This document shows positions 3,101 to 36,123 of a stretch of 39,556 nt of DNA, one piece after another. Under the pieces are notes generated by a model. It saw only the letters and a program-made list of their open reading frames with translations. It was not told the DNA's origin and did not search any database. The first letter of the stretch is position 1. Each line of letters opens with the position of its first letter. Origin of the DNA: Candidatus Helarchaeota ASGARD archaeon Hel_GB_A (GTDB taxonomy: Archaea > Asgardarchaeota > Lokiarchaeia > Helarchaeales > HEL-GB-A); the NCBI GenBank assembly GCA_005191415.1, contig SUPS01000005.1, forward strand, positions 1 to 39,556, given 5' to 3'. The position numbers and the translations under genes were made by a program.

Positions 3101-6100
3101 TCAATCAACTGGCCTGACCTTTCCAGCCTCTGGTTGATATATAAGCCCTCGCGCAATTAATTGCTCAATTGCCCGCTCCATAAATGACCGCTGGAGGTTA
3201 ATTCGTTCCCCTTCTTCTAAAATGTCTTCTATTGGTACAGCTTCACCCCGCTGACTTACCAAATCTCGAATGAGATCATGTAATGCTTCTAACCGATCTC
3301 GTTGCGTCTTCGATTGTCCGGTATATATTATATCGATATCCGACATGCCTGTTTCGCGATCTGTTCCCACTTGACGTAATGAATACTCCAGTAACCGAAT
3401 AGCAGCTTCTGCATCTTCGATAGTCGCTTCATTTCGTAAAGCCATACGCGCATGTGCTTGAGTTAAGCGAATAAGTGCCCCTAATTGACGAGCTGTAATT
3501 GGAACGGGTGCATCTTGTCTTTCACCAGCACTACGTTTTTCCACGTAAAAACTTTTTAACCGCGCTGCCGCTTCTGGGGAGAGAACAGGAAAACATGTTC
3601 TTCTCGCGTAATGAATATATTTTCGTAGGAGTTCCGCTTCAATAGGTGGCTCAACCTCCTCTGTAATGCTCTGGATAATTACATCTGCCATTTGACTATC
3701 TCTTTCCGCTTCGGGACGATCTCGAAGGATAAAAATTAAATCAAATCGTGAGAGTATTGTAACTGGCAGACGTTTAATATTCTCAGCTACTGTTTTATAT
3801 TCATCATATCTTCCAAAAGTAGGATTTGCTGCTGCAAGAATGGACGTTCTTGCATTTAATGTCGCTACAATTCCAGCTTTGGCGATACTTATCGTATTTT
3901 GTTCCATGGCTTCGTGAATTGCCACACGATCAGAAGGTTCCATTTTGTCGAATTCATCAAGGCAATTATGAACGAATATTCCATTACTAAGGTAGTTATG
4001 ATTCATAGGAACATACAAATCATACACAAATCCATCATATTTTCTATAATTAATCCTTACAATCTGATCCAAGAAGAAATCTCGATTAATTATTAAATCC
4101 ATTTTCTGTAAAATCTTTTTATCTATCAATGGCAATAATTTTTCTCTTATTTTGAGCAGCTGTAACCTTGATGGTTGATATTTTTTATTTTTATATGCAT
4201 AAAGGGTACTCCAAATTCCTTTTTCCAATAAAATGGACTTATTCGTTGATGCAACAATTTGATTACATAATTCAGATACTAAATTCGCAGGTAATTTATC
4301 GCTAAATGACGAAACAAAGTGCTTTCTCTTTGGTATTATTTTCAGCTTTACACTGAAGTCTTTAATAGCCTCCAAAAGTAGTCGTATATCTTCCCTACCA
4401 GTTATTCGGATAGCATTGATATTTCCTAATTTAATTAATTTAGCATAACAGTTGAATCTCCTTAAAGCGAGCATAAAGGTTCTATCATTTGATTCATCAT
4501 TAGAGAGGTGGAAATTAATTTCTATGGTTTCGTATGTCTTATCAGCTTTCCTTCCCTTTTTAATTGAAAGACATCCGTCAGAATCAAAACAGCCTGCAAT
4601 GAATGCACTTAATGATTTATTTGGTAACTTTAGGAGGTTTTTAAGATTTTTCTCTATTAAATAATTATAAATATACGCTAAAAGATTTGAACCTACATAT
4701 AAAATAACACTTTTACTCGTAACTTTCATATTTTTTATAACACTAACAGTCTCTCTTTCGTATTCATTTAATTTTTTGGATGAAAATTGTTCGAATGTAT
4801 TTTTAAGCTGGTCTATTTGAGCTTTGTTTTTCAATGATTGATAGATATGAATAAAGGATCTTCTATCACTTGTTTTGACCATACCATCTCCATAAATAAA
4901 TCCAAGAAAATAAGCCATGTCTGGTGTTATTTTATTTACTTTTAATCGTTCCCCAGAAGCCTTCCTACCAAACTTTAGACACTTTTCCCTCCATTTCTGA
5001 TAAATCCCAAAACTTTTCAGAATTTCCTTGAATTGACCAAGTTTAATTTGACTTCTGCCTGAAAGAAAATCTCTACTAACTTTAAATTTTCTATTAAATT
5101 CAGCAAATGTCTTGAAATGTTTTAATACTTCTTTTCGTAAATCCTGTTTCTCTTCTGCATTAAGAATAACAAGCCAATCATCAGGGATAATATCTAAAAT
5201 GTAAATATCATCATGACGTTCTGGAATTTTTAATGGTGCAACGACATACTCCCCAATTTTAAAATTTTTCGCTGCTTTCCATTCTAATGAATTCCCATCA
5301 ACAATTTTATGCTCAGGAGTAAGTCTTATTTTAAAACCGGATTTAAATTCAATCTCTATTATATCCCCATTATAATATTTTCGCCTTATACGTGAGGAAT
5401 TCGAAGGAATATTCTGAAAATTTGAATTTAACGATACTACCTCGGTGTCTAACTCACATAGTTCGATTTGTTCGCCTCTGGAGTGGGCTATGTATCTTTT
5501 CTGATTATTAAATAAGTTCTCAATTTTCTCCAAACCATTATCTGTAAGCACTCTTGATTCGCCACATAAACACGCAATTCCCCGATCGGCCAAGACTAAT
5601 GCTCCTGCTTCTAGTGTAAAATCCCCTGTTTCTTTATCTCGCAAAACAGCAGCTGTTAACCCAACAGCAGTTGTACCTTTCCCACTTGTATAAAGTCCTC
5701 GTGGCGCGATTTTGGATACATATTGTAATAACATCGATTTCCCAGTCCCTGGATCACCTACCAACAGAACATGCGACTCACCCCGAAACTTTGTACCATC
5801 TTTCTGTTGTCGCGATACTCCTCCAAAGAGCTGAAGTGCAATAGCTTCCTTGATATTTTCATTTCCGTACATTGTAGGGGCAATAGAATGAATGATCTTT
5901 CGATGAACCCATTCATCTTTTGCAAGTTCTTTAATTCTTTTCTCTTCCTCTGGTGTAATTTCAAGACGTTCTGTATCAATTTCAGAAGTATCTAGACTAT
6001 TTACTTCAAGAAATACATGAAATGTTTTTAAACTACCTCGTTGCCCCATATCACGTGCCGAATATAAAATTCCAACTGCTGTAATTCGGTTTCCTGGTCG

Positions 6101-6760
6101 AACGGTATCAACTAAATCCTCTTTGAGATAAGCATCTAAGGATCGTGGAAGCTGCCCTGCAGGGAGTTCTTCAGGTTTTTCTTGAATTCGAATCTTCTGC
6201 CAATCAATAAAAATTGATTTCTGAGGAAGAAACTCAAATGGACCTTTTTGATTACAGTTTGGACACTGATAAGGTTTTGTAAAAGCATCTCCTTGAGGGA
6301 TTTCAATATCAATATCTTCACATCCACGCCGTCGACAGCGAAATACCCCTACGATCAATTGCGGCTTTACCTCACTTGCTCTTGTCAAAATTCCATTGAC
6401 AGAAATGAGTTTTCCAATGTGTTCAGCTCTTATTTTTCGTAGATGAATTCGATGATTTTCGGGTAAATTTACGAAACGCGCATGAAAAGTATGTCGGGCA
6501 TAATCTTCTGCTTCGATTACCATTACATTCCGTATGGCTTCTGCGGCTGCCTCGATACACTCGAGCGGCGATTGTAGCGTGCGTTCAGCAAGTGTAGGGT
6601 CAAAATTAAATAAATCATCGAAATTAATTTCTAAAGAGCGCTCACCTCGCATAGGCATCTGTTCAATTTTCTCTCGGTATTTTATATGCCCATCTTCTGT
6701 CATAAACTCCTTGAAAAAAGTTACGTACCGCGCAATCGGATCAAAATCATCATTTGCCAT
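3101..6760 (-). CDS. mcm: Replicative DNA helicase MCM, intein-containing precursor
   Basis: The hexameric replicative helicase that unwinds DNA ahead of the fork. The 1219-residue precursor has an N-terminal OB/zinc region (Cys142, Cys147, Cys166, Cys169), Walker A GDPGTGKS (335-342), an intein at 397-932, then Walker B CLDEFD (933-938), sensor 1 AAANP (976-980), arginine finger LSRFD (1003-1007) and a C-terminal winged-helix-like region (about 1155-1219). Removing the intein gives a 683-residue MCM of normal archaeal length with an uninterrupted ADRGIACLDEFDKM segment. The ATG at 6760 has AGGGTAG upstream. The gene follows GINS23 on the same strand after 200 bp. TATA-like sequences on the minus strand near 6789 and 6822 suggest its own promoter. 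Function is certain; dependence of activity on splicing follows from the Walker B interruption. Confidence 0.97.
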   Translation of the reverse strand: MANDDFDPIARYVTFFKEFMTEDGHIKYREKIEQMPMRGERSLEINFDDLFNFDPTLAERTLQSPLECIEAAAEAIRNVMVIEAEDYARHTFHARFVNLPENHRIHLRKIRAEHIGKLISVNGILTRASEVKPQLIVGVFRCRRRGCEDIDIEIPQGDAFTKPYQCPNCNQKGPFEFLPQKSIFIDWQKIRIQEKPEELPAGQLPRSLDAYLKEDLVDTVRPGNRITAVGILYSARDMGQRGSLKTFHVFLEVNSLDTSEIDTERLEITPEEEKRIKELAKDEWVHRKIIHSIAPTMYGNENIKEAIALQLFGGVSRQQKDGTKFRGESHVLLVGDPGTGKSMLLQYVSKIAPRGLYTSGKGTTAVGLTAAVLRDKETGDFTLEAGALVLADRGIACLCGESRVLTDNGLEKIENLFNNQKRYIAHSRGEQIELCELDTEVVSLNSNFQNIPSNSSRIRRKYYNGDIIEIEFKSGFKIRLTPEHKIVDGNSLEWKAAKNFKIGEYVVAPLKIPERHDDIYILDIIPDDWLVILNAEEKQDLRKEVLKHFKTFAEFNRKFKVSRDFLSGRSQIKLGQFKEILKSFGIYQKWREKCLKFGRKASGERLKVNKITPDMAYFLGFIYGDGMVKTSDRRSFIHIYQSLKNKAQIDQLKNTFEQFSSKKLNEYERETVSVIKNMKVTSKSVILYVGSNLLAYIYNYLIEKNLKNLLKLPNKSLSAFIAGCFDSDGCLSIKKGRKADKTYETIEINFHLSNDESNDRTFMLALRRFNCYAKLIKLGNINAIRITGREDIRLLLEAIKDFSVKLKIIPKRKHFVSSFSDKLPANLVSELCNQIVASTNKSILLEKGIWSTLYAYKNKKYQPSRLQLLKIREKLLPLIDKKILQKMDLIINRDFFLDQIVRINYRKYDGFVYDLYVPMNHNYLSNGIFVHNCLDEFDKMEPSDRVAIHEAMEQNTISIAKAGIVATLNARTSILAAANPTFGRYDEYKTVAENIKRLPVTILSRFDLIFILRDRPEAERDSQMADVIIQSITEEVEPPIEAELLRKYIHYARRTCFPVLSPEAAARLKSFYVEKRSAGERQDAPVPITARQLGALIRLTQAHARMALRNEATIEDAEAAIRLLEYSLRQVGTDRETGMSDIDIIYTGQSKTQRDRLEALHDLIRDLVSQRGEAVPIEDILEEGERINLQRSFMERAIEQLIARGLIYQPEAGKVRPVD
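3965..5572 (-). other. Intein with LAGLIDADG homing endonuclease, inside MCM Walker B
   Basis: A 536-residue intein spanning MCM precursor residues 397-932. Block A begins at Cys397 (CLCGESRVLT). Block B has TPEHKIV with the usual Thr and His (481-487). Two LAGLIDADG-type endonuclease motifs are visible, LGFIYGDGMV (619-628) and IAGCFDSDGCLSI (721-733), each with an acidic residue in place. The C-terminal splice block reads YDLYVPMNHNYLSNGIFVHN, with penultimate His931 and terminal Asn932, followed by Cys933 as the +1 nucleophile. All splicing residues are therefore present and the endonuclease keeps both acidic motifs, so both activities look intact. MCM/CDC21 genes are known intein hosts; which named insertion allele this is was not checked. 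Confidence 0.95.
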
Positions 6761-9435: not shown

Positions 9436-10383
9436 TTATCGGCTGGTTCTTCTTTTATGACTAAAGTCAAGTTCAAGTGATTTTGGATGCTCTACTTGAA
9501 TACGTTTAATTTCTTTTACCATTGCTACTTTTAATTCTTGATCTGAGGGAATTACGTGCTGTGCTTGAGGCGAAGTAAATGCTTCAACCTTCTTATTTAG
9601 CGAATTAGATATATACTCATAAAATTGTTCTATTAATGGGTCTGGTTTAGCTTTTTGCTTAATTTTTTGTGCTACTAATTTCGCGGTCTTTTCAAATATA
9701 TCTAGGCGTTCAAGGAGTGCTTTTCGGTATTCCGCTTTTAGAATTACTGAAATTGCTGCGTCGTAAGCTTTTCCACGTGCTTGAGGATCGGGAATGGAAA
9801 AAACATAAACCAGACCAATTCCATTGGGAAAAGGAAGTACTGATGAAGTATCTAATAAAGTACTGGCATTTTCAAATCCCGCACTTAAAATTAATAAAGA
9901 TTTCGCAGCGATTTCAAAGATTTTCTTCTCAGATAACGATTTTGGCATCCAACTAACTGCCCCTAGTCCTAAATCCCCTGCTTTAGAAAAAACAACAGCA
10001 ATAATTCGTTCATCTTCTGGGATTTTTGGTTTAGAAGGAGTTGGTTGTAGTGCTTCAAGAAGAAGACTCCCATAATCACGCGTTATTTGCCCAAATTTCT
10101 TTAATACAAAATCTTCATGGGTATTTGTGATACAAACGATAAATGCCTCTGTTGAGATTTTGTAGATATAAAGGAAATAATTTGAATTAGGCAAATCTTG
10201 TTTGATATAATGATTGATCGGGATAGATGCATATTGCTTGACTATTTTTGAGATTAGGGCATGCGAATTTTCTGAAAAATTAGACGCAATAAAGCTACCA
10301 TCTGCACGTAATATACCTATATTTGTGGGATGTAGTGTGTTGAGGTCATTTGCTATATTATACACAACCGATTTTAATTCCAT
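9436..10383 (-). CDS. Roadblock-like plus longin-like domain protein
   Basis: Probably a regulator or scaffold for small GTPases. Residues about 1-110 look like a roadblock/LC7 (profilin-like) domain: GILRADGSFIASNF strand-turn-strand, then a helix, then YFLYIYKISTEAFIVCITN. Residues about 125-245 look like a longin-type domain: IIAVVFSKAGDLGLGAVSWMP, a helix KIFEIAAKSLLILSAG, and LPFPNGIGLVYVFSIPDPQARGKAYDAAISV, a pattern recalling longin-like proteins common in Asgard archaea. The C-terminal 70 residues are helical and charged, ending in RRTSR. The ATG at 10383 has AGGAG upstream at 12 nt. It is divergent from the aro cluster. The fold calls rest on pattern and length, not on a search, and the partner GTPase is unknown. 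Confidence 0.55.
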   Translation of the reverse strand: MELKSVVYNIANDLNTLHPTNIGILRADGSFIASNFSENSHALISKIVKQYASIPINHYIKQDLPNSNYFLYIYKISTEAFIVCITNTHEDFVLKKFGQITRDYGSLLLEALQPTPSKPKIPEDERIIAVVFSKAGDLGLGAVSWMPKSLSEKKIFEIAAKSLLILSAGFENASTLLDTSSVLPFPNGIGLVYVFSIPDPQARGKAYDAAISVILKAEYRKALLERLDIFEKTAKLVAQKIKQKAKPDPLIEQFYEYISNSLNKKVEAFTSPQAQHVIPSDQELKVAMVKEIKRIQVEHPKSLELDFSHKRRTSR

Positions 10384-14787: not shown

Positions 14788-14856
14788 CTATGATTCATCA
14801 AAAAGCCATGGCGTAAAAAGTTAGACACAAGAGACAAAATATTGGAGAAAATAAAA

Positions 14857-15975
14857 ATGCTGAGAAATGTGATTATATTCAAGGAGAAAGAAGTAATCTA
14901 CGCTAGAGAATATGGAAAATCGCTGCCTGATGAAACTCTTTACCCCTTAATTGAATCTCTGAAAGATTATTTAAGAAATTTTGCCGTTGATATCGTTGAT
15001 TTTATGCATGTTATTAATTTTAAAATTTGCTACGCTACAAATCGCGAACACAATTTATTATTCATTTTAGTCTGCGATCCTACAGATAAAGATGATTCTA
15101 TTCGCGATGAAATCGAGTACATTCGACATAAATTCCTCAATAAATTCACAGAGCCTCTTTCTCAAGGAATTACAGACCCTAATGCGTATAAAGAAATAGA
15201 AAAAGATGTCAAAATTAGTAAAAGTGAGTTACGACCAAAAATTTCACTTGTTGGATTTAGCGGAGTTGGTAAGACAACAATTACTAAATTGATTAAGGAA
15301 GAAGAAATCCCAACACGCCATATACCAACTATTACTGGCTATATATCCGAGATTACAGTTGGTGATTTTGAAATGTACCTTTGGGACTTAGCGGGTCAAG
15401 TTAGATATGCCGAAGTATGGGCACAATTTATGAGAGGTTCCGATGTTATTATACTAATCGTTGATTCAACAGAGCAAAATGTATATGAATCCCGTTTTTT
15501 CATTGAACTATGCCGTAAAGAAGCACCTTATGCGCGCGTTGCTGTTATTGCAAATAAACAAGATCTACCAGGTGCGCTCTCTCCCGAACAAATTAGTGAT
15601 ATTCTAGATTGCGGTATTTATGGTTACAAAGTAACTCCTCTTGTTGCAATCGATGTTAAAAACAGAATCCCAGCCTTGAAAGTAATGGCAGAAACTGCCG
15701 CAACAACTGCTAAAACCTTGGCTGAATTTCAGACACTAGATGATATAAAGGGTATGTTAACTCAAGTTCCAATTGCAATTGAGAAAGGATATTTAAAAGA
15801 GGCTGCAAAAATTTTAGATGAAATCGCCTATCTCGCTAACCTTAGAGGTGATCCTGCGAGAGCAGAAAAATACGCCAGCTATGCAGCTTATATCCGAAGC
15901 CAAAACAAAACAATTGACCAAAAAATGAAACTCGTTTATAAGGCGATTGAAGAGAAACAACAGGAATATTTCTAA
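14857..15975 (+). CDS. Longin-domain Arf/Gtr-like small GTPase
   Basis: A eukaryote-like small GTPase of Asgard type. Residues about 1-110 form a longin-like domain (LRNVIIFKEKEVIYAREYG strand pair, helix TLYPLIESLKDYL, strands FKICYAT and LLFILVCD). The G domain follows: G1 GFSGVGKT (133-140), switch I HIPTITGY, G3 WDLAGQ (176-181) and G4 NKQD (233-236). WDLAGQ/NKQD and the PT switch I point to the Arf/Rag/Gtr side of the Ras superfamily. The C-terminal 80 residues are helical and TPR-like (LKEAAKILDEIAYLANLRGDPARAEKYA). No lipidation motif is seen. I chose ATG 14857 because GGAG lies 9 nt upstream; a TTG 15 nt earlier is in frame. It lies between aroK and aroA; a link to aromatic metabolism is unproven. 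Confidence 0.85.
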   Translation: MLRNVIIFKEKEVIYAREYGKSLPDETLYPLIESLKDYLRNFAVDIVDFMHVINFKICYATNREHNLLFILVCDPTDKDDSIRDEIEYIRHKFLNKFTEPLSQGITDPNAYKEIEKDVKISKSELRPKISLVGFSGVGKTTITKLIKEEEIPTRHIPTITGYISEITVGDFEMYLWDLAGQVRYAEVWAQFMRGSDVIILIVDSTEQNVYESRFFIELCRKEAPYARVAVIANKQDLPGALSPEQISDILDCGIYGYKVTPLVAIDVKNRIPALKVMAETAATTAKTLAEFQTLDDIKGMLTQVPIAIEKGYLKEAAKILDEIAYLANLRGDPARAEKYASYAAYIRSQNKTIDQKMKLVYKAIEEKQQEYF

Positions 15976-30679: not shown

Positions 30680-33124
30680 ATGAAACACAAGAATTTAACT
30701 GGGATCTGGTTACTTATAATAGTTTTGACAGTAATTTTTGTTAGCACTCATAAAATTGAGGCAGAAAGTGGAACCGATTCACCAAATTATCAATTTATAG
30801 GTAATTATAATGGTAATGCCTCAGTACTCTTCTTTCTAGATAGTGGAAGTTCAGGATCTATTAATTTTGATAGCTATTTCACGAATACCTATGAACCTAC
30901 TTTAAATAATTCCCAGGATCTAATCTTTACTGCAAATAGTATTGAAATTACTGCTAATCAAATGACAAATGGGAGTGGAACTTACATTATTGGTTCCAAT
31001 GAAACCGCAAAGGAGAATATTTCCAGTGCATATAAAGTTGCTCAACAATTTTCAATTCCCCATTTATCTACTATTTCTACCATATCGCTTTATCTTGAAT
31101 ATAATTTCACTGATTATTATCATTTCAAAGTAAAAATCACAGAAGAAGATCTGAATACGACCATAGAGGAGCTTTATACTGAAGAATATGGAGGATCTTA
31201 TTCAGGATGGACTCCCTATACGTTCCAGAATAATTTCTTAGAGCCAGGGAAAACCTATTATATAGTTTTTGAAGTGGTAAATATGAGTTTTTTCAATACC
31301 GAAACTAATCTTGTAGAAAATAATTTTTGGAAAGCAGAACTACACAACAGTTCAATATACGATAAAGGTAGTACCTTCATATTCGATGGGGCTAATTGGA
31401 ATCCGATTCAGAATGATTCTTGGAGAGATATGTTGTGTTATTTTGATTATACCATTTTGGTAGATCCCACCCAAGCCAATCTTCGATTGTATTTAAACAA
31501 CACGTTATGTGAGTATACAAAAAGAAAATCACTTTTGGATACTGATAATGGATATGAAGTGTATTATACAGCTTATTTTCAAACAAAACCAACAGGTCCC
31601 ATAAATGTAACTATCCTTTTAAATACCACCATTGAATTTATGAGTATAACTGTAGATTTTCGATATATTTACATAGTACCAGCTATAACAGGGTGGTTTA
31701 CCGCTTCACCTGACAAGATTAACTGGACACTAATTTATTCTTATCCATACGTGGCTGATATTCTCTCTTTTTCCGATGCAATGTTCGCATATGAACTTGA
31801 TTGGGATTATTATGAATTTAGCGATGACAATACTGTGGTTAATAATTTATATGTTGGTCCTATCAAGTTTTATGGGTTTTCAGGTTACGCTGCATTTCCA
31901 CATTCCATTTCCACGTTTCAGCGGGGGAACGTCACTGGAAAATTCACGTCGCCTAATTACTGCAATATCATCATCCCTAAAGTAAAGATTAATTCAGAAT
32001 TTCAAACAACCAGCAAATTTGAGCTGGAACAAACCGTAAGATTAGAGGCATCTATAAAAGACAGAGAGGGCAACCTTATTTCAGGAGGGAAGGGTTTAAT
32101 TAATTTTACATCCCCTTCAGGTCAGACATTATCTTTTTCAAATCTCACATCGATCAATGGAACTATTATTACGGATGAATTCTACCTAGGTAATAATTTT
32201 GAAACAGGCCTTTATACAGTTTCGGTCTTTTGGACAAACGGAAGGGAGGTGGGGTGCTATATATTTCAAATGGAAGTTTCTGAAGTCCCTGCAGCCCCTT
32301 CCAATTTCCTCCTCTACTTACTAATAGGAATTACCATTTTACTCGCGACAATTTCGAGCTTGTTAATCCTTAAGACGAAGGGTATTTTATGGGGAAAAGG
32401 TCCCATAAACATTTTTATTAGCCATAAGGCAGAAGATTATGAACCCTACAAGGTAAAAGAGATCTCCGAACATCTACAAAAGAAAAAAGAAGTGGGAACC
32501 GCCTTTTATTTTGAAGAACATCTTGTGGGTAATATCGATGATTGGATGAAAGAAACAATTCCCATTAGTCAAATTCTACTATTTATTGCGACGAAGCAAT
32601 CCATAAATTCAAGAGACTGCCAATACGAGATTAAATGGGCAAAAGAGGCAGGAATAGACATTATTCCAATTAAGGGAACTGATCTCACATGGGATGATTT
32701 AAATCCACTTGGTCTAGACCGCCAAAAAGGTATTCCATTCCCTGAAAATAGGGAAGAATTCATTACATTTTTAAATGATCTTCATTACTATGTCAAGAAG
32801 TTCAAACAAGAAATGGATGTAGTCTATGTAGTATTAAGTAAATCGCCGGTCTCTGATTTAAATCTAATTCAATTAGAAACTAACCTAAGCCCAGAAAAAA
32901 TATGGAGATTTTCAAAAACACTAATTCAATTGAAAAAACTCAAGGGTGTCTGGACAAAAGATAAAAAAGAGTTCCTACGAGAAGATGAAGTGATAAACCG
33001 AATAAATCTTCTTAAAAAACTCGGAAAAATAAAAGATTTTAATCAAATAAGAGATGCACTACGAATCCATGAAGAATATCTCGAAATCTTTAATGAAATT
33101 TTAAAATCTCAAATGGAAGATTAA
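30680..33124 (+). CDS. Single-pass surface receptor with cytoplasmic TIR domain
   Basis: Predicted type I membrane protein of 814 residues. A signal peptide (1-29: basic MKHK, then LTGIWLLIIVLTVIFVS) leads into an ectodomain of about 510 residues. The ectodomain has 18 N-x-S/T sequons and ends in an Ig-like or macroglobulin-like module (about 433-535). One membrane helix follows (543-565), then a TIR domain (about 575-709): INIFISHKAEDYEPYKVKEISEHL, the helix GNIDDWMKETIPISQILLFIAT, and SRDCQYEIKWAKEAG with Glu650 at the NADase catalytic position. The last 100 residues look like a winged helix plus helices. ATG 30680 gives the signal peptide; a TTG 39 nt upstream is in frame. The domain layout is directly visible; sensing and NAD cleavage are inference. 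Confidence 0.82.
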   Translation: MKHKNLTGIWLLIIVLTVIFVSTHKIEAESGTDSPNYQFIGNYNGNASVLFFLDSGSSGSINFDSYFTNTYEPTLNNSQDLIFTANSIEITANQMTNGSGTYIIGSNETAKENISSAYKVAQQFSIPHLSTISTISLYLEYNFTDYYHFKVKITEEDLNTTIEELYTEEYGGSYSGWTPYTFQNNFLEPGKTYYIVFEVVNMSFFNTETNLVENNFWKAELHNSSIYDKGSTFIFDGANWNPIQNDSWRDMLCYFDYTILVDPTQANLRLYLNNTLCEYTKRKSLLDTDNGYEVYYTAYFQTKPTGPINVTILLNTTIEFMSITVDFRYIYIVPAITGWFTASPDKINWTLIYSYPYVADILSFSDAMFAYELDWDYYEFSDDNTVVNNLYVGPIKFYGFSGYAAFPHSISTFQRGNVTGKFTSPNYCNIIIPKVKINSEFQTTSKFELEQTVRLEASIKDREGNLISGGKGLINFTSPSGQTLSFSNLTSINGTIITDEFYLGNNFETGLYTVSVFWTNGREVGCYIFQMEVSEVPAAPSNFLLYLLIGITILLATISSLLILKTKGILWGKGPINIFISHKAEDYEPYKVKEISEHLQKKKEVGTAFYFEEHLVGNIDDWMKETIPISQILLFIATKQSINSRDCQYEIKWAKEAGIDIIPIKGTDLTWDDLNPLGLDRQKGIPFPENREEFITFLNDLHYYVKKFKQEMDVVYVVLSKSPVSDLNLIQLETNLSPEKIWRFSKTLIQLKKLKGVWTKDKKEFLREDEVINRINLLKKLGKIKDFNQIRDALRIHEEYLEIFNEILKSQMED

Positions 33125-35472: not shown

Positions 35473-36123
35473 TCAACCTCCAGTTGAATCTATATTTTTC
35501 AATTTTTCTAATAGACGATTAATACTTGTTACAAGTTTATTCCCATGTAATAAATAATGGAAATCGCTTTTAGTTTTTTCAATGAGGCTCCGTGCAATAT
35601 CTGTCTTTCTCCGAATGCCTGGGACCAATCCTTCTGGATAATCTAAAGTAATTAATAAATCATATATTTGTTCCATGACTCCTAAGCTCCATTCTGCCTC
35701 CTGGAAATCCTCATTTCTCATGGCATCAATCGAATAGCGTCGTAATTCACCGATAAGATCTCCTAATCCTTCAAGGTAGGCATATTCCGAAACATTAAGT
35801 GCCTCTGGACCTTGCATCTCGGTATTTTTCTGAACTAATGCCAAAAACAGAGATGCCTCAACAAATTCTTGGTGCATTACAGTCACATAACCTTTATAAA
35901 ACAGATGAGGACTCAATTCTTTAATATTTTTTTCCACTTCATCTATTAATTTCCTTACTTCTTTTAAATTTTCCTTTGCTTTTTTAAATTCTCTTCTATG
36001 AGTCGCTCTTACAGCATCTTGTGATAATCTAACTGCTTTTCTAGTAACTTTCAACGTGTTTTCTCGGACTTCATCATCAATTTCTAATTTCTTTATTATT
36101 TTCTCGAAAATCTTTTGAAACAT
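35473..36123 (-). CDS. Translin/TRAX family protein
   Basis: All-helical nucleic acid-binding protein of the translin/TRAX family; eukaryotic TRAX is the RNase of the C3PO complex and cuts small RNA or pre-tRNA fragments. Diagnostic runs in this 216-residue protein: KAVRLSQDAVRATHRREFKKA, VTVMHQEFVEASLFLAL (81-97), and VSEYAYLEGLGDLIGELRR (111-129). NEDFQEAEWSLGVMEQIYDLLITLDYP and GIRRKTDIARSLIEKTKSDF follow. Acidic residues Glu86, Glu89, Glu126 and Asp175 lie where TRAX keeps its metal ligands, so nuclease activity is possible. The ATG at 36123 has AGGTGAT 8 nt upstream. It sits 34 bp after taw1 and directly before hypB. Confidence 0.88.
   Translation of the reverse strand: MFQKIFEKIIKKLEIDDEVRENTLKVTRKAVRLSQDAVRATHRREFKKAKENLKEVRKLIDEVEKNIKELSPHLFYKGYVTVMHQEFVEASLFLALVQKNTEMQGPEALNVSEYAYLEGLGDLIGELRRYSIDAMRNEDFQEAEWSLGVMEQIYDLLITLDYPEGLVPGIRRKTDIARSLIEKTKSDFHYLLHGNKLVTSINRLLEKLKNIDSTGG

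Follow-up and report, generated by a model that had tools for sequence, protein, structure and literature searches.

A predicted membrane receptor with a cytoplasmic TIR domain in a Lokiarchaeal genome, probably formed by exchange of a longin-like tail

Results

The DNA analysed here (the window, 39,556 nucleotides) is one whole contig, SUPS01000005.1, of the Helarchaeales genome Hel_GB_A (G000), a MAG that is 83% complete and consists of 333 contigs. The gene of interest (Table 1) might alternatively start at a TTG codon located 39 bases upstream of the ATG. Its neighbours are metabolic and RNA-modification genes (MobB/FeS, tRNA pseudouridine synthase, MiaB-like radical SAM, HypB-like, TYW1 and a Translin-family gene, PF01997, at 35476-36123 on the minus strand), in agreement with the initial annotation, which had seen no flanking defence genes. 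Elsewhere, the window encodes an MCM helicase that is split by an intein carrying a LAGLIDADG-like domain (3104-6760, minus strand), an eukaryote-like protein of the Folliculin (longin/DENN) type matching PF11704 above cut-off (9439-10383, minus strand) and, amid aromatic-amino-acid genes, an Arf/Ras-type small GTPase domain with an N-terminal extension of about 130 residues (14842-15975, plus strand).

Table 1. Position of the gene and of the predicted parts of its product in the window.
Feature	Position	Strand	Basis and remarks
Whole gene	30680..33124	+	814 aa + stop, ATG start, open frame; 100% match to G000:C308
Predicted signal peptide, residues 1-28 (KHK, hydrophobic core 6-24, IEA-E)	30680..30763	+	hydropathy 2.17; AlphaFold helix 3-23
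Membrane-distal all-beta module, residues 37-260	30788..31459	+	AlphaFold strands, pLDDT mostly 60-93; homologous in 14 relatives
Second all-beta module, residues 261-430	31460..31969	+	family motifs, e.g. NW/EW, ELDWD, SPNYC; AlphaFold and family alignment
Membrane-proximal macroglobulin (MG2)-like module, residues 433-535	31976..32284	+	Foldseek, weak Pfam MG2, pLDDT about 87-94
Predicted single transmembrane helix, residues 541-566, with the positively charged flank on the inner side	32300..32377	+	hydropathy, AlphaFold
TIR domain, residues 575-709	32402..32806	+	Pfam TIR_2 above cut-off; family alignment
Glu650 codon, NADase-position glutamate	32627..32629	+	motif reading, family alignment
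Winged-helix-like tail, residues 715-814	32822..33121	+	common to three TM-TIR receptors of G041

The layout proposed initially, with a signal peptide, an ectodomain, one membrane helix and an inner TIR domain, was borne out by hydropathy, AlphaFold modeling and the Pfam TIR_2 profile, while a search of NCBIfam yielded nothing useful and the sole match of the whole protein in the PDB (phmmer), a flavin reductase, was judged to be due to chance. The ectodomain of about 510 residues is all-beta in the AlphaFold model (pLDDT mostly 60-94). A structure search of residues 433-535 by Foldseek matched the macroglobulin-like fold of the alpha-2-macroglobulin domain 2p9r (TMt 0.77, E 1.5e-4), and Pfam MG2 was found below its cut-off (E 0.0019). 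The ectodomain showed no LRR match and consists instead of all-beta modules and the MG2-like domain. When its profile was compared with the PDB, a weak local match to the prion protein (E 0.003) was obtained and dismissed as biologically implausible. Counting N-x-S/T without Pro at +3 as a sequon, residues 29-535 contain 18 sequons, where shuffling of the sequence gives 8.6 +/- 2.5 (P about 0.0004), and a further one is located at N5 within the signal peptide. The 18 ectodomain sequons had already been counted in the initial annotation; its single cytoplasmic sequon, NLSP at position 735, fails this rule, and the scarcity of sequons on the inner side, which it had taken to support the topology, is uninformative, as residues 576-814 hold none where 0.9 are expected. 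Membrane hydropathy is reached in just two segments, residues 6-24 (signal) and 546-564 (2.43), and the next best segment reaches 1.21; a second membrane helix that would place the TIR domain outside, a possibility raised initially, is not predicted. No basic residue is found among the 15 residues preceding the helix and two are found after it, for which reason the C-terminal part is predicted to be cytoplasmic, and even an uncleaved signal helix would leave the TIR domain inside. The product is hence predicted to be a single-pass membrane protein with a cytoplasmic TIR domain.

Within this C-terminal part, Pfam TIR_2 (PF13676) matches residues 578-668 with an E-value of 4.3e-7 and 30.9 bits, the cut-off being 28 bits; the cytoplasmic part alone scores 34.2 bits, and 16 of 17 related TIR domains match the profile, too. 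The AlphaFold model, based on an alignment without TIR relatives, has a pLDDT mostly below 55 over residues 575-709. Glu650 resides in the motif SRDCQYEI and is kept in at least 90% of the aligned TIR relatives, its S-x-D-C context likewise in nearly all of them, supporting its earlier assignment to the position used by NAD-cleaving TIRs, whose catalytic glutamate lies in helix C. In contrast, neither of the Toll motifs Box 2 (RDxxPG) and Box 3 (FW), as defined in PMC7075850, occurs in residues 571-715. The TIR profile matches the solved TIR-TPR protein 9m0n, and PADLOC returned a weak ThsB match for the window protein (E 0.0008); searching viral contigs with the TIR alignment gave no matches. 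Profile searches matched the tail (residues 715-814) to wHTH-like units that recur within other Asgard proteins, which supports its initial description as winged-helix-like. Units related to this tail are repeated in Asgard proteins of about 800 residues (L184-L196), one of which has a WD40-like propeller at its N-terminus, while others have a zinc-finger-like N-terminus.

The ectodomain belongs to a family with a different inner part. A search of 60 relatives revealed about 30-34% identity over approximately residues 37-583, after which the match stops, although the frames of the relatives continue to 760-820 residues; the family match reaches 1e-87 over residues 41-583, covering the ectodomain and the membrane helix. 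A scan of the genome collection with the window protein as single query gave no matches, while one with the ectodomain alignment gave 12 Lokiarchaeal loci, and the ectodomain is present in 21 of the 228 genomes of the phylum. In all relatives with a readable C-terminus (e.g., JAHQWJ010000046, L104, and CP070831, L101), the membrane helix is followed by RNWEKSLxNLFVLTKDGLSLYEYSFG... and a tail of about 200 residues, never by a TIR domain. This tail is 55-97% identical among relatives, far above the conservation of the ectodomain, and the combination of a conserved tail with a diverging ectodomain is, at the level of sequence, a receptor-like pattern. A low-confidence model (pLDDT 58) predicts two strands, a helix, three strands and further helices for the tail, with the longin-superfamily proteins AP sigma, BLOC-3, VAMP7, Sec22b, TRAPP and COPI as top Foldseek matches, each weak and individually not significant; together with the predicted topology, they point to a longin-like domain. 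Common binding partners of the longin fold are small GTPases or vesicle proteins. A profile of this tail found 81 matches in G003 (L031, L032 and many more) and another 27 in G000; the frames concerned range from about 180 to 2450 residues and represent a very large, unnamed longin-like expansion.

The profiles of the TIR domain and of the longin-like tail are unrelated. Of the members of the ectodomain family that were found, the window protein alone has a TIR domain in the position of the tail, and no exact copy of its architecture occurs in the 228 genomes. As read from the alignments, it appears to have arisen by a domain swap, the break lying immediately on the inner side of the membrane. 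The longin-like tail is retained by paralogues in G003 and by L058, a relative in another class; by parsimony, the TIR form would therefore be the derived state. The ectodomain tree leaves the placement of the window protein without resolution, on a long end branch (1.52), and the longin-tailed relatives share no synteny with the window.

Matches to the TIR domain at E <= 1e-8 were found in 34 of the 228 genomes, all of the same class as the window's. Most of the 82 distinct TIR frames that were read are soluble, LRR-like motifs occurring in most close relatives of the window TIR, and besides the window gene, G000 itself carries at least five TIR genes, among them three such close relatives with LRR-like motifs. 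Several other forms are anchored in the membrane. G041 encodes three proteins of 1093-1311 residues, in which a signal peptide, an LVIVD propeller, TSP3 repeats and a membrane helix are followed by a TIR domain and a tail of the window type; G010 and G007 share nearly identical TM-TIR proteins of 543 residues with a WD40 propeller outside; and a frame of G149, the start position of which is uncertain, encodes a TM-anchored TIR with repeats that appear Ig-like by eye. The picture of a lone oddity is not borne out, as the ectodomain family is normally longin-tailed and the class possesses these other membrane TIR receptors. In a tree of 77 TIR domains, the window TIR falls inside the Lokiarchaeal radiation, its exact place being without resolution, and the polytopic, WD40 and Ig-like forms cluster together (100/98). 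Membrane anchoring of Lokiarchaeal TIRs therefore probably arose more than once. Two related receptors have degenerate motifs (Gln at the Glu position in L025, a worse one in L026), and therefore enzymatic activity is not expected of every membrane TIR. Descent of the window TIR from eukaryotic TLRs was considered and rejected, as the domain nests among Lokiarchaeal TIRs (in a tree without eukaryotic TIRs) and has neither Box 2 nor Box 3.

Two further groups were observed among these TIR proteins. Six polytopic proteins of about 400 residues that end in a TIR domain (L039, L154, L083, L152, L034 and L036) form one clade (98/86) in Lokiarchaeia. In six Lokiarchaeal genomes, LRR-TIR genes occur as tandem, nearly touching pairs (L158:3593-8373, L160:1927-6707, L161:1921-6701, L165:137-4911, L166:3568-8348 and L157:3724-8506), of which one partner keeps the D-C-x-x-E motif and the other has it in degenerate form; the partners fall into separate, well-supported clades, and the pairing recalls plant paired receptors.

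Discussion

We propose, with a probability of roughly 0.6, that the window gene encodes a type I membrane receptor and arose by a domain swap, in which a TIR and winged-helix cassette replaced a longin-like part. The ectodomain and membrane helix would derive from the Lokiarchaeal receptor-like family with a longin-like inner part, which would have been exchanged just inside the membrane for a cassette from the class's own TIR pool. Alternatively, the assembly might have falsely joined two genes, one for an ectodomain with a longin-like tail and one for a TIR protein, as could be suspected of a single known case in a MAG of 333 contigs. However, the frame is intact across the junction, which falls at a domain border, and there is no step in composition (GC 0.341/0.331, GC3 0.287/0.296). 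Moreover, G000 contains neither a second copy of the ectodomain nor an orphan longin tail of this family, the best tail match reaching only 7e-33, and G041 independently joins the same TIR-tail cassette to a membrane helix and other ectodomains. An assembly chimera is, thus, highly improbable.

NAD-cleaving TIRs such as SARM1 and those of plants and bacteria act when clustered. By analogy, the window protein is most likely a ligand-gated, membrane-tethered TIR receptor yielding an NAD-derived signal; we infer the ligand, the activity and any immune role. The TIR domains would be drawn together when the glycosylated ectodomain with its MG domain binds a ligand or clusters, the assembled TIRs might cleave NAD at Glu650, resulting in an ADP-ribose-type messenger or in loss of NAD, and the winged-helix tail may recruit a partner or regulate assembly. 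Ligand-triggered NAD signaling or cell death had been suggested in the initial annotation, and such a response might serve defence. The single fusion, the lack of a flanking partner gene and the lack of a ThsA-like STALD domain in G000 speak against such a receptor. Animal Toll receptors work by scaffolding, and a non-enzymatic receptor might similarly recruit other TIR proteins, e.g., soluble LRR-TIRs, upon ligand-induced clustering, with the glutamate being structural. The other TIR genes of G000 would be candidate partners, some membrane-bound relatives are devoid of the glutamate, and this residue is frequent even in TIRs of no known activity (PMC7075850). Conservation of Glu650 and its context, here and in nearly all relatives, and the absence of the Toll boxes render scaffolding without catalysis unlikely. 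A role in surface adhesion or envelope sensing, in which the TIR domain reports the state of the envelope or cell contact, would agree with the housekeeping neighbours, the MG-like module and the usual longin-like tail of the ectodomain family, which points away from defence and towards trafficking or the dynamics of membranes. As the output of TIR domains mostly serves defence or cell death, and as the ectodomain diverges fast, as seen from its long end branch, we consider this non-immune function rather doubtful as well.

Textbook animal innate immunity relies on type I membrane receptors whose output is a TIR domain, while the TIRs of prokaryotes are mostly known to act as effectors inside the cell. 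Like the window protein, the NAD-cleaving effectors ThsB of Thoeris, TIR-APAZ, TIR-STING and TIR-TPR possess a TIR domain with a conserved glutamate; however, they are soluble or sense inside, whereas here a sensor on the secreted side is joined to the TIR domain via a membrane helix. The window gene is not part of a Thoeris system, as no ThsA adjoins it and no STALD domain was found in G000. Another close counterpart, at about 30-34% identity over the whole ectodomain and membrane helix, is the ectodomain-TM-longin family, which differs by the longin-like inner domain in place of TIR and winged helix. Rst 2TM-1TM-TIR also couples membrane proteins with TIR, but, judging from its name, by separate membrane and TIR genes and not in one chain with a large ectodomain. 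This system is listed among those scored in Asgard genomes in a survey of Asgard defence (PMC11291487), which treats TIR in passing and only as part of named systems. Among the open papers searched, we found no description of an Asgard or Lokiarchaeal TIR receptor. A review mentions short transmembrane additions to some TIR proteins of prokaryotes (PMC9153377), and membrane TIRs as such are therefore not new; what appears to be new is the receptor layout and the exchange of the tail.

Tentatively, Lokiarchaeia might possess modular surface receptors, whose ectodomains are recombined with either longin-like (small-GTPase type) or TIR (NAD type) outputs, alongside cytoplasmic LRR-TIRs; this would represent a prokaryotic counterpart of Toll receptors in an archaeal lineage related to eukaryotes, a view that we hold to be possible but somewhat short of probable. 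The lineage-specific domain swap in Asgard archaea, the many LRR-TIRs and the other membrane TIRs indicate that the layout of Toll receptors can also come together outside eukaryotes, and they provide concrete genes for asking whether Asgard cells sense the outside via NAD signaling and whether receptors with a longin-like tail recognise the same ligands as those with a TIR tail. With animal Toll/Toll-like and IL-1 receptors, the window protein shares, by prediction, the signal peptide, a glycosylatable ectodomain, one membrane helix and a cytoplasmic TIR domain. Unlike Toll receptors, it has no LRR ectodomain, its TIR nests among those of Lokiarchaeia, and since Box 2 and Box 3 are absent and the NADase glutamate is kept, the likeness appears to be convergent. 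As judged from these features, the protein is Toll-like in its layout and stands outside the Toll family.
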